Origin: a bacterium
GTDB taxonomy: Bacteria > CSSED10-310 > JAJRTK01
Direction: 5' to 3'
NCBI GenBank assembly: GCA_024278345.1
Contig: JAJRTK010000160.1
Coordinates: 1 to 17,547 of the forward strand
DNA length: 17,547 bases
Shown here: one piece after another, positions 1 to 17,547 of the stretch
How the letters are laid out: every line of letters begins with the position of its first letter
How positions within the stretch are numbered: position 1 is the stretch's first letter
Notes under the pieces: generated by a model
What the model saw: the letters and a program-made list of their open reading frames with translations, nothing else
Database searches by the model: none
Told to the model about the DNA's origin: nothing
Program-made: the position numbers and the translations under genes

Positions 1-84
1 CTGGCGTGGGTCTGGGAGCGGCGCTCCCAGCGGAGGTCCGGAGGCGGAGCCTCCGCCGGGTTCCAGGGCTGGAAGCCCCGGGGC
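1..84. repeat. Hairpin-array repeat, left copy (cut by window start)
   Basis: A run of short perfect hairpins. CTGGGAGC-GGC-GCTCCCAG is at 12-30, GGAGGC-GGA-GCCTCC at 40-54, GGGCT-GGA-AGCCC at 66-78, and the palindrome GCCCCGGGGC at 75-84. Bases 1-64 recur as a direct copy at 17484-17547 with one difference (G46 versus A17529). That difference falls in the 3-base loop of the second hairpin, so the stem is preserved. The left part of the array lies outside the window. No gene is supported here, although one minus-strand frame is open across it. Confidence 0.9.
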
Positions 85-103
85 GGCGTCTGAAATCTGA
101 ACC

Positions 104-127
104 GTGGCCGGTACCATGACCGAGGCC
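104..127 (+). repeat. 24-bp inverted repeat, right-end copy of hairpin element
   Basis: These 24 bases, including GGTACCATGACCGAGGCC, occur again in exact reverse complement at 17410-17433. The match stops abruptly on both sides. Here the repeat lies downstream of the hairpin array; at the other end of the window its inverted copy lies upstream of the array. I infer that it is the terminal inverted repeat of the element carrying the array. It contains a KpnI-type GGTACC and an outer dyad, CGTGGCC...GGCCACG, at 103-130. Confidence 0.75.
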
Positions 128-1823: not shown

Positions 1824-2936
1824 GTGTGGATCAGGACCATTGAAGTGGACGGACTGCGCAATCTCCGGAGCCAGGACTTGGAGTGTTCCAGGGGGATGAA
1901 CATTCTGATAGGGGAGAATGCCCAGGGAAAGAGCAATTTCCTTGAGGCGATTAGCTTGGCTTGTCAGGCTCGCTCTTTTCGGCAAAGCACGAATGAGGAG
2001 ATCCTTCAATTTGGCCGGGAACATGGATCGGTAACCGCCTCTTTTGAGGAGGGCGGTTCTGGCGGAAGCATCACTTGCCGTATCGCTTTGGATGAGCGGC
2101 ACAAATATGCTTTCGTCGATGGAAGGCAGGTGACGCAAATAACGGATTTCTTGGAGAGAACTCCGCCGATGGTCGTTTTTAGGAGTGAGAGCTTGGCCAT
2201 TGGCCGTGGATCTCCGGAGGTGCGGCGAAGGTTTTTAGATGGGCTTTTGGTGGGACTCGCGCCCTCGTTTGCCAGAGTTCTTCGGCGGTATCGCCGGGCC
2301 CTGATGCAGCGGAATACCGCGTTGAAGAAGGGGTGGGGCGTCCCCGAGCTTGCGGGCTTCGATGACGAGCTTGTGGTGGCAGGCGTGGTGCTTTTGGAAC
2401 GGCGGCGGGCTTTGGTGGAGGACCTGGGAAAGATCGCGGCTCGTTTCCAAATGGAGTTTGGCGAGGAGCTTGGGCTTTCCTATCGTGCCACGATTCCGTT
2501 ATCCTATGGGGATGGACAAACGCTTGAAGACAAGAGGGCCGAATACCGCAGTTTTCTGAAGCGAGGCCTTCACCGGGATCGGCAACAGGGAACGACGACG
2601 AAAGGGCCTCACCGCGACGACTTGTCGATTTCTCTCCAGGGGCGATCACTGAAGCGGTTTGGTTCCCAGGGTCAAGTGAGGAGCGTGGTCATTTCCCTCA
2701 AAATTGCTGAGATCGAGCTCTTGAGCCAGGCAAGAGGGAGACCGCCGATTCTTTTGCTTGACGATGTGGGCGCGGAGCTGGATCATCGGCGTCGCGAGCG
2801 TCTTTTCGACGCGGTTTCCAAGGGTCGCCAAGTTTTCATCACCACGACGAAACTCGAGGTCTTGGGATTGGATTTTGAGGATTGCCGCCTTTTTAAGGTG
2901 GAGCAGGGGGAAGTCGGGAACAAGGTGGCAAATTGA
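1824..2936 (+). CDS. recF: DNA replication and repair protein RecF
   Basis: An SMC/ABC-like ATPase that with RecO and RecR loads RecA at single-strand gaps. Walker A is GENAQGKS (about residues 30-37, with Ser in place of the commoner Thr). The ABC signature is FGSQGQ, preceded by TTTKGPHRDDL. Walker B with D-loop is PPILLLDDVGAELD, followed by VFITTT. I chose GTG at 1824 (product MWIRTIEVDGLRNL) because it matches the usual short RecF N terminus and has GGAG at 1814-1817 with a 6-base gap. An in-frame GTG at 1809 would add five residues but has no properly spaced site. The length of 370 residues is normal. It follows dnaN by 34 bases and is probably co-transcribed with it. Confidence 0.95.
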   Translation: MWIRTIEVDGLRNLRSQDLECSRGMNILIGENAQGKSNFLEAISLACQARSFRQSTNEEILQFGREHGSVTASFEEGGSGGSITCRIALDERHKYAFVDGRQVTQITDFLERTPPMVVFRSESLAIGRGSPEVRRRFLDGLLVGLAPSFARVLRRYRRALMQRNTALKKGWGVPELAGFDDELVVAGVVLLERRRALVEDLGKIAARFQMEFGEELGLSYRATIPLSYGDGQTLEDKRAEYRSFLKRGLHRDRQQGTTTKGPHRDDLSISLQGRSLKRFGSQGQVRSVVISLKIAEIELLSQARGRPPILLLDDVGAELDHRRRERLFDAVSKGRQVFITTTKLEVLGLDFEDCRLFKVEQGEVGNKVAN

Positions 2937-2964
2937 TTTCCAAGGGCCGCCAAAGGACCAAGGC

Positions 2965-3118
2965 GGGACCTATCAGATCCGGTTGACAACATCACCGCTG
3001 GGGCAGGCCTCCTTCCCAGCTCCGTGCAGCCCGGAGGGCGCTACACAGGCAAGATGCCGGTGCCACCGTTTCGGCGAAGAAAATTGTAAAGCAAAAACAC
3101 GACAATTTGATAGGTCCC
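2965..3118. mobile_element. MITE-like insertion with 8-bp target duplication
   Basis: The ends are perfect 11-bp inverted repeats, GGGACCTATCA at 2965-2975 and TGATAGGTCCC at 3108-3118 (13 of 14 if extended). They are flanked directly by ACCAAGGC at 2957-2964 and again at 3119-3126, an exact 8-bp direct repeat as expected for a target-site duplication. The 154-bp body has no transposase reading frame, so the element must be non-autonomous. Inside are short hairpins with 3-base loops: GCCC-GGA-GGGC, GGCA-AGA-TGCC and GGT-GCC-ACC. Several insertion-sequence families make 8-bp duplications and I cannot assign the parent. It separates recF from gyrB and probably changes how gyrB is expressed. Confidence 0.8.
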
Positions 3119-3153
3119 ACCAAGGCTGAGGTTCCGGTGAAGGGTGTTAGAGA

Positions 3154-3180
3154 GGCGAGCAGCGGGAGCGGCCGCGACCG
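3154..3180 (+). repeat. 27-bp GC-rich repeat upstream of gyrB
   Basis: Contains the 15-base core CGGGAGCGGCCGCGA (3163-3177), which includes a NotI-type GCGGCCGC palindrome. The reverse complement of 5764-5790, just after gyrB, matches this site at 23 of 27 positions. The site lies 155 bases before the gyrB start. It may be a protein-binding site or part of a dispersed repeat; the sequence does not say which. Confidence 0.55.
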
Positions 3181-3284
3181 ATGGGAGCGGAAGACAACAA
3201 AAAAACAAAAGCGTTTTATTAAGATCGTGCCCTGCGGGGTGACAACCGACTGTCCGAATCAGTGCTCTTGTTGGCTTTGCTTAG

Positions 3285-5750
<2,466 letters not shown>

Positions 5751-16246: not shown

Positions 16247-17455
16247 TCAAAGGTTTTTCCGCAGATAGAGCTTTTGTGGCCGCGTCCGATAGCCGCTCTT
16301 AGGCCAGAATCCCTTGGGGAAGTCTGAAAGGAGATCCGTGGATTGAAGGAAGTAATTCTTTTCCAGAACCCCTTGAAATCGTCGTTGGAACCATTCGGTA
16401 CCGGTGTCTAGGATGATGGCATCATAATCTTGCCGTCGGATCGAGCTCCGGAGCTTCATCAGGAGTTTTCGGCCCTCTGGCCGTTGGGGGCCTCCGAAAT
16501 CACCCAAAAGCTCTCCCAATGCCATGGGATGAGCGATGCAGCCTTTCCCGGCTGACCGGCACAGGTAACCGTGAGCTGGAACCAAGACCGGTCCGGGAGA
16601 TCCACGGAGGGTCTCTTCCATGACCTTTCCGGCGCCGAGATCAGCCGCGGTGGGAAAGAGAGAGAAGGGTTCGTAGGCAAGGGCGAGGAACTGGAGCAGA
16701 GCGACCAGAAAAAGGTAGGTCCGTACGGTAGGGGCTTTTCCAGGAGAGGACTGGACCATGAAGAGAGCCTTGTGGAAAGCCAACCCAAAAGCGATGGACA
16801 GGAAGGCGTAAGCTGGGAAGAGGGCATTTTTGTAGGATGCGGCGTTTGCCCTTCCTCCCCAGGAAAGCCCCAGGAGCCCCGCAGCCAGAAGAAGGAACCT
16901 CAAAAAGGGCAGCCTTTTGCCTTCCCAACTGAGGCACAGCCCATAGAACAGGGCCATGGCGCAAGCGATGGAGAGGGGAGCGATGACGTCATGGCTCCAA
17001 AAACCCAGCAAATAGGAAACGTCCAACTCGTGCTGCCGGGGCAGGGAAAAGACATAGTACAAGAACCACCCTTCGTGGAAGAGATCCAGGGCAAGAATCG
17101 CGCTGCCTACGGAAGAAGCAAGGACTCCGCCAAAGGTCAAGGCCGAATTCCGGCCATGGAGCCAGGCAATCAAGAAAAAGAAAGGTGCCAAAAAGAGGGC
17201 GGTTTGCTTGGTCAGAAAGGCCAGACAAAGCCAGAGAGCGGAGGCCGCGAAATCCCTTCTTCCTTTGCCGCCAAGGAGCCTTCTACAAGAGCACAAGACG
17301 AGCGCCAGAAAAAGGGAGTCAATCCGCGCTAGATCGAACCAAGCGCCACCGAGCCAGTAGGTTGCGGCAAGCAAGCATCCCGCGAGCAACCCAGAGAGAT
17401 GGTTTTGTGGGCCTCGGTCATGGTACCGGCCACCCGAAAAAAGCGCGCAGCGCAC
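16247..17455 (-). CDS. GT39-like membrane glycosyltransferase, 5' end displaced by repeat element
   Basis: A polytopic membrane protein with the pattern LGGAWFDLARIDSLFLAL (about 35-52), then AFLTKQTALFLAPFFFLIAW, then further membrane segments and a soluble C-terminal part ending RTRPQKLYLRKNL. This resembles GT39/PMT-type glycosyltransferases, but the usual N-terminal 80-120 residues (first membrane helix, acidic pair, YPP loop) are missing. Residues 8-16 (GGRYHDRGP) are encoded by the 24-bp repeat at 17410-17433, so family-like sequence starts only at about residue 17. The frame stays open through the hairpin repeat to the window end, so GTG 17455 is an arbitrary start. Either the gene was truncated by the element or it carries an in-frame insertion. 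It is likely non-functional if truncated. Confidence 0.6.
   Translation of the reverse strand: MRCALFSGGRYHDRGPQNHLSGLLAGCLLAATYWLGGAWFDLARIDSLFLALVLCSCRRLLGGKGRRDFAASALWLCLAFLTKQTALFLAPFFFLIAWLHGRNSALTFGGVLASSVGSAILALDLFHEGWFLYYVFSLPRQHELDVSYLLGFWSHDVIAPLSIACAMALFYGLCLSWEGKRLPFLRFLLLAAGLLGLSWGGRANAASYKNALFPAYAFLSIAFGLAFHKALFMVQSSPGKAPTVRTYLFLVALLQFLALAYEPFSLFPTAADLGAGKVMEETLRGSPGPVLVPAHGYLCRSAGKGCIAHPMALGELLGDFGGPQRPEGRKLLMKLRSSIRRQDYDAIILDTGTEWFQRRFQGVLEKNYFLQSTDLLSDFPKGFWPKSGYRTRPQKLYLRKNL
17410..17433 (-). repeat. 24-bp inverted repeat, left-end copy of hairpin element
   Basis: Exact reverse complement of 104-127. It lies 34 bases before the hairpin array that starts at 17468 and inside the reading frame of the minus-strand glycosyltransferase. 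Its outer edge (17409/17410) is where the family-like protein sequence gives way to repeat-encoded residues, which supports an insertion boundary there. Confidence 0.75.
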
Positions 17456-17467
17456 AAAGATGTGGGT

Positions 17468-17547
17468 CCAGGGAGCTGGCTCCCTGGCGTGGGTCTGGGA
17501 GCGGCGCTCCCAGCGGAGGTCCGGAGGCAGAGCCTCCGCCGGGTTCC
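17468..17547. repeat. Hairpin-array repeat, right copy (cut by window end)
   Basis: Hairpins in order are CCAGGGAGC-TG-GCTCCCTGG (17468-17487), CTGGGAGC-GGC-GCTCCCAG (17495-17513) and GGAGGC-AGA-GCCTCC (17523-17537). Bases 17484-17547 match 1-64 in the same orientation with one loop substitution. This copy shows the left part of the array that is missing at the window start, while the 5' copy shows the right part. Confidence 0.9.

Follow-up and report, generated by a model that had tools for sequence, protein, structure and literature searches.

The spacer between recF and gyrB holds, as far as we can judge with near certainty, a young copy of a new MITE family, MITEs being a known kind of mobile DNA. 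The window (the whole stretch of DNA that was analysed, 17,547 nucleotides) corresponds to contig C81 in a draft assembly that totals 6.06 Mb and consists of 550 contigs. The element, its terminal inverted repeats (TIRs) and its further parts are located in the window as follows.

2957–2964, no strand: left target-site duplication ACCAAGGC, read directly
2965–3118, plus strand: MITE of 154 bp, subfamily A, from the sequence and copy searches
2965–2975, plus strand: left TIR GGGACCTATCA, near-invariant across 23 aligned copies
2983–2989, plus strand: subterminal motif TTGACAA (TTTACAA in the older subfamily C), with T19, T20, A22 and C23 invariant
3044–3067, minus strand: REP-like hairpin, GTGG + CACCGGC-ATCTT-GCCTGTG on the minus strand, with stem variants among copies
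3084–3093, minus strand: right subterminal motif TTGTAAAGCA (minus strand TGCTTTACAA), with G122, T123, A125, A126, C128 and A129 invariant
3108–3118, minus strand: right TIR TGATAGGTCCC, from the sequence and the alignment
3119–3126, no strand: right target-site duplication ACCAAGGC, read directly

The first 11 bases of the 154-bp element (GGGACCTATCA) are the perfect reverse complement of its last 11, and an exact 8-bp direct repeat encloses these inverted repeats; on re-reading, the letters are as an initial annotation of this DNA had claimed. The gene coordinates agree with its placement of the insertion between recF and gyrB, upstream of the latter. recF occupies positions 1809–2936, the element starts 28 bp past the recF stop, and the likely start of gyrB is the ATG at 3336, which lies behind GGAGGG and 217 bp downstream of the element. 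The element was also described as lacking coding capacity, and this holds: no reading frame is conserved among copies. Frame +0 is fortuitously free of stops over all 154 bp, but length variants of 151, 153, 155 and 158 bp, together with sequence drift between subfamilies, argue against a coding role.

Copies, target-site duplications and empty sites

Other copies with the same ends, the absence of which the initial annotation had named as counter-evidence, are numerous. The 6.06-Mb assembly contains 275 exact copies of GGGACCTATCA but none (n = 0) of the reversed letters, which served as a control; the arrangement, which the initial annotation had called very unlikely by chance, is thus not due to chance. 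A Blast search within the organism's own genome returned at least 40 near-full copies at 95–100% identity, and a sequence profile built from 23 aligned copies gave at least 152 matches. More than 50 of the 152 profile matches listed are incomplete, mostly at contig ends, and the MITE is therefore one cause of the fragmented assembly.

We searched 329 kb of sequence fetched from the same genome for pairs of TIRs at spacings of 40–3000 bp that are flanked by an 8-bp duplication, allowing up to two mismatches in each TIR and one in the duplication. The search yielded 37 complete copies with 8-bp duplications, all of them 151–155 bp long. The duplications are perfect in 32 of the 37 and have one mismatch in the other five. 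The duplicated 8-mers vary from copy to copy, are essentially unrelated and have no obvious consensus; 36 further copies thus show the arrangement seen in the window with other 8-mers.

A comparison with an empty site had been proposed as a check, and when run within the genome it revealed uninterrupted sites for the copy at locus L015. This copy is inserted in another dispersed repeat, of about 85 bp or more, and three other loci run uninterrupted through the site. When the L015 flanks are joined with one 8-mer, they align straight across the junction, at 79–88% identity, to these three element-free loci; L027 versus L028 is a weaker empty-site case. The nearest gyrB in the compared genome collection is only 57% identical. 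The positions of the witness repeat are given below.

L015 1373–1660: repeat that carries the MITE
L007 1292–1374; L183 6267–6349; L014 344–418: element-free repeats

Nineteen of 25 empty sites fall in frames of at least 150 codons, against 94% of control positions, which suggests that MITE insertions are biased to intergenic DNA, in a test that is weak because stop-free frames are long everywhere in G+C-rich DNA.

The family comprises at least three subfamilies. Subfamily A accounts for 29 of the 37 copies, each with one to five changes from the 154-base consensus, a divergence that is overstated because identical copies tend to collapse in short-read assembly. The copy in the window has three changes (positions 41, 54 and 83); other copies also have the one at position 41, and the remaining two are private. 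This low divergence from the consensus, together with the perfect duplication, bears out the reading of a relatively recent, intact insertion. Two subfamilies, B and C, at about 72% and about 80% identity, respectively, are older; both retain the TIRs, the subterminal blocks and the hairpin at the centre. The family must therefore have spread in several waves.

The element thus has the features by which a MITE is recognized: a length of 154 bp (MITEs measure roughly 50–400 bp), TIRs, fixed 8-bp duplications, dispersed copies, empty sites and no coding capacity. For a further such feature, an autonomous insertion sequence that shares the ends, the assembly offers two candidate fragments, described below. 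We consider the MITE explanation, which the initial annotation had put forward, very nearly certain on account of the copy number, the unrelated perfect 8-bp duplications, the empty sites within the genome, the low divergence and the MITEs of like build in a genome of the same phylum, although mobility is read from marks in the sequence. The 11-bp TIRs would be recognized by a transposase that acts in trans and comes from an insertion sequence sharing these ends. Such an enzyme, probably of the DDE type, would make its staggered cuts at a distance of 8 bp, in targets that are nearly random, and the 8-bp duplication would result when the gaps are filled. The autonomous element may have been lost, or it may be unassembled or unbinned.

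Two other repeats were seen in the same DNA. One is dispersed and lies in the same recF-gyrB spacer at window positions 3152–3205, with a core GGCGAGCAGCGGGAGCGGCYGCGACCGATGGGAGCGGAANNCAACA and two GGGAGCGG units; at least 40 places are listed for it (354 first-look candidates), and no TIRs were seen. The other has inverted ends GCCTCGGTCATGGTACCGGCCAC and is found at both ends of the window (1–126 and 17411–17547). About 200 bp long when complete (L160, L163), it is present in many of the fetched loci; in L181 and L036 it lies within or directly next to copies of the MITE.

Relation of the insertion to gyrB

Most likely the element is merely tolerated in the recF-gyrB gap, as a passenger that has no dedicated role there. 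It had been suggested that it may bring a promoter or a terminator to gyrB. No such match was detected in positions 2900–3400, and an effect on gyrB is therefore unsupported. An adopted gyrB regulatory element, acting as a promoter, a terminator or a processed RNA hairpin, would fit the location of the insertion directly behind recF and upstream of gyrB. It would also fit the observation that both strands fold better than shuffled sequences (z −3.5 and −3.1), mainly via the paired TIRs. However, such folding is expected of any element with TIRs, the same sequence is carried at more than 100 unrelated sites, and the search of Rfam gave a sub-threshold nadA match only (E 0.67), with no family above chance. 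We regard adoption for gyrB regulation as improbable.

The interior of the element

Besides the TIRs, the most constant parts of the element are TTGACAA/TTTACAA on the left, TGT(A/C)AAGCA on the right and the central hairpin CACCGGC-AAGAT-GCCGGTG. The left subterminal motif is a possible transposase-binding site, to judge from its position and conservation. The hairpin stem occurs among copies in the variants CACC/GGTG, CACA/TGTG, CAGC/GCTG and CGCC/GGCG, which are compensatory changes; in the window copy a C-to-A change disrupts one pair of the stem. On the minus strand there is a GTGG-tagged imperfect palindrome (GTGGCACCGGCATCTTGCCGGTG). Tandem arrays of the hairpin unit, with about 32–35 bp per unit, were observed in L045 (1501–1737) and L187 (1501–1779), which indicates that the hairpin can multiply locally.

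The GTGG-tagged hairpin looks like the REPs, which carry GTAG or GTGG tags and are mobilized by RAYTs (REP-associated tyrosine transposases) (PMC3733652, PMC2817692). The family might accordingly have spread chiefly via its hairpin, moved by a RAYT on single-stranded DNA, with the TIRs being incidental. The tag, the compensatory changes in the stem that follows it, and the tandem multiplication in L045 and L187 are all consistent with such a route. Unlike RAYT-mobilized REPs, however, the hairpin here is embedded in an element with TIRs and target-site duplications, and in 37 copies the 8-bp duplications lie directly outside the TIRs. Transposition by RAYTs or by IS200/IS605 enzymes is not known to create target-site duplications or to require TIRs. 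In addition, the hairpin was found only in MITE copies or MITE-associated arrays among the loci fetched from the organism's own genome (G000), a sample chosen for MITEs. Spread by a RAYT is in our view very improbable.

The TIRs and the duplication would also be found in a single decayed insertion-sequence remnant, but this reading is refuted by the copy number, with more than 100 copies of near-constant length, and we give it hardly any credence. That the inverted and direct repeats arose by chance or through faulty assembly can be virtually dismissed: the draft assembly does break at these repeats, but assembled-through copies have unrelated flanks and unrelated, mostly perfect duplications, which refutes an artefact, and the TIR count expected by chance is near zero.

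Candidate remains of an autonomous partner

A full insertion sequence with these termini, which the initial annotation had proposed to look for, was not found in the assembly, and two candidate right-end fragments were the only finds. Exact TIRs without adjoining MITE-type sequence were listed exhaustively (three patterns, own assembly), a listing that would not separate a partner with a left end resembling that of the MITE for at least 14 bases. All such TIRs are MITE variants, except the two right-end fragments, on contigs C70 and C521 (loci L160 and L161). C521 and C70 have in common a stretch of 156 bp (97% identity) that terminates in TATGAATTGATAGGTCCC. Their TIR is that of the MITE, their interior is different, and both contain a TTACAA block internal to the end (CTTACAAGT). 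From their sequence, the two fragments may be the right end of an autonomous partner. When L161 is read as a C-terminal protein end of 24 residues (QRLTGCAIHDWLAELGYPPSHLLN), no match is obtained in Pfam, NCBIfam or plasmids; we therefore make no transposase claim for this reading and treat the fragments as a lead only.

Two known types of insertion sequence were rejected as partners. The three ISKra4-like loci (C17, C481 and C464) have no TIR at their ends within two mismatches, and for the ISAs1/IS4 type (PF01609) there is one C-terminal ISAs1-like relic, at C373, with no TIR beside it. Fragments of ISKra4-like transposases were observed in L162 (1–1116), L165 (1501–1761) and L163 (1501–1833); one of them, at the edge of a contig, contains an internal stop.

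Relatives in other genomes

Only one of 59 other genomes was matched, G031 from another phylum, and the match covers 25 bases of the palindrome only. With the profile, one of seven genomes of the same phylum was matched: G003, which belongs to another family, with three matches (best E 5.2e-5). Two of these three are complete elements of 152–153 bp that have a different TIR, GGCGTCGGCCGAAT, and bear perfect 8-bp duplications (CATTCTTG and CAAATTCA). The first 13 bases of the GGCGTCGGCCGAAT end occur 135 times in G003 versus 2 in the control. The G003 stretches, about 370 kb in total, contain recurrent short elements of 43–210 bp with 8-bp duplications, and these short elements were found there without an autonomous element. 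Elements with GGCGTCGGCCGAAT ends and 8-bp duplications were also observed with diverse interiors of 88–208 bp. Examples in G003 are listed below.

L193 1483–1634
L194 1251–1403
L220 1501–1708
L212 1501–1627

In the plasmids and phages searched there was no MITE-like match, and the longer left-end and partner-end patterns gave nothing in viral contigs. The 34 viral matches to a 15-bp end pattern lack a partner end and are attributed to chance.

The G003 MITEs partly share the interior of the family described here: both have a REP-like hairpin, in which compensatory changes are seen, and the subterminal motifs TTTACA and TGT(A/C)AAGCA. Shuffled sequences reach far lower similarity than the two interiors do (z ~7); with the hairpin removed it is weaker (z 2.6–4.2), and the best shuffle equals it in some comparisons. 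Common descent of the interiors of both families is likely on these values, but unproven. We infer that ends may have been exchanged. Tentatively, and as a possibility that we hold to be rather doubtful, an old conserved interior, made up of the subterminal blocks and the hairpin, could have been carried under different TIRs across families of the phylum, which would make these elements modular MITEs. If so, ends would have been exchanged and the hairpin core kept, perhaps because it aids transposition or is itself mobile.

Comparison with known elements

QMITE2 is the closest described relative in build; the two were compared by description, and we claim no membership by sequence. In Coxiella burnetii, QMITE2 is 150–190 bp long, has variable direct repeats of 7–11 bp and an embedded GTAG-tagged REP palindrome, and sits in intergenic regions and 3' ends, and shorter copies, as well as relatives elsewhere, retain the palindrome without the ends (PMC5896051). 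Its ends measure 17–29 bp versus 11 bp here, and its duplications 7–11 bp versus 8 bp throughout. The family described here further differs in its unrelated host, its GTGG tag and its higher copy number.

The ends and target duplications of Correia, ERIC and RUP differ from those found here. Correia elements also carry promoters, whereas none was detected in the present element. All three are high-copy short non-coding elements with TIRs, and ERIC reaches 150–711 copies in some genomes, with 711 in Photorhabdus (PMC10969869). The copy number observed here is high but within the known range. The Chunjie MITE of Geobacter uraniireducens is present in tens of copies with TIRs and direct repeats, which are intergenic, with one operon insertion and many partial copies (PMC10969869). 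Compared by description, it is longer (178–235 bp versus 154 bp).

These results define a new MITE family of high copy number, from a phylum of bacteria that is poorly sampled, with no demonstrated meaning for the regulation of gyrB. The relative with different ends and a partly shared interior provides a concrete case in which to ask what is preserved in a MITE, and the case also bears on how tagged hairpins become embedded in MITEs. Most deserving of a further look is the conserved interior with its hairpin, found as it is under different ends.
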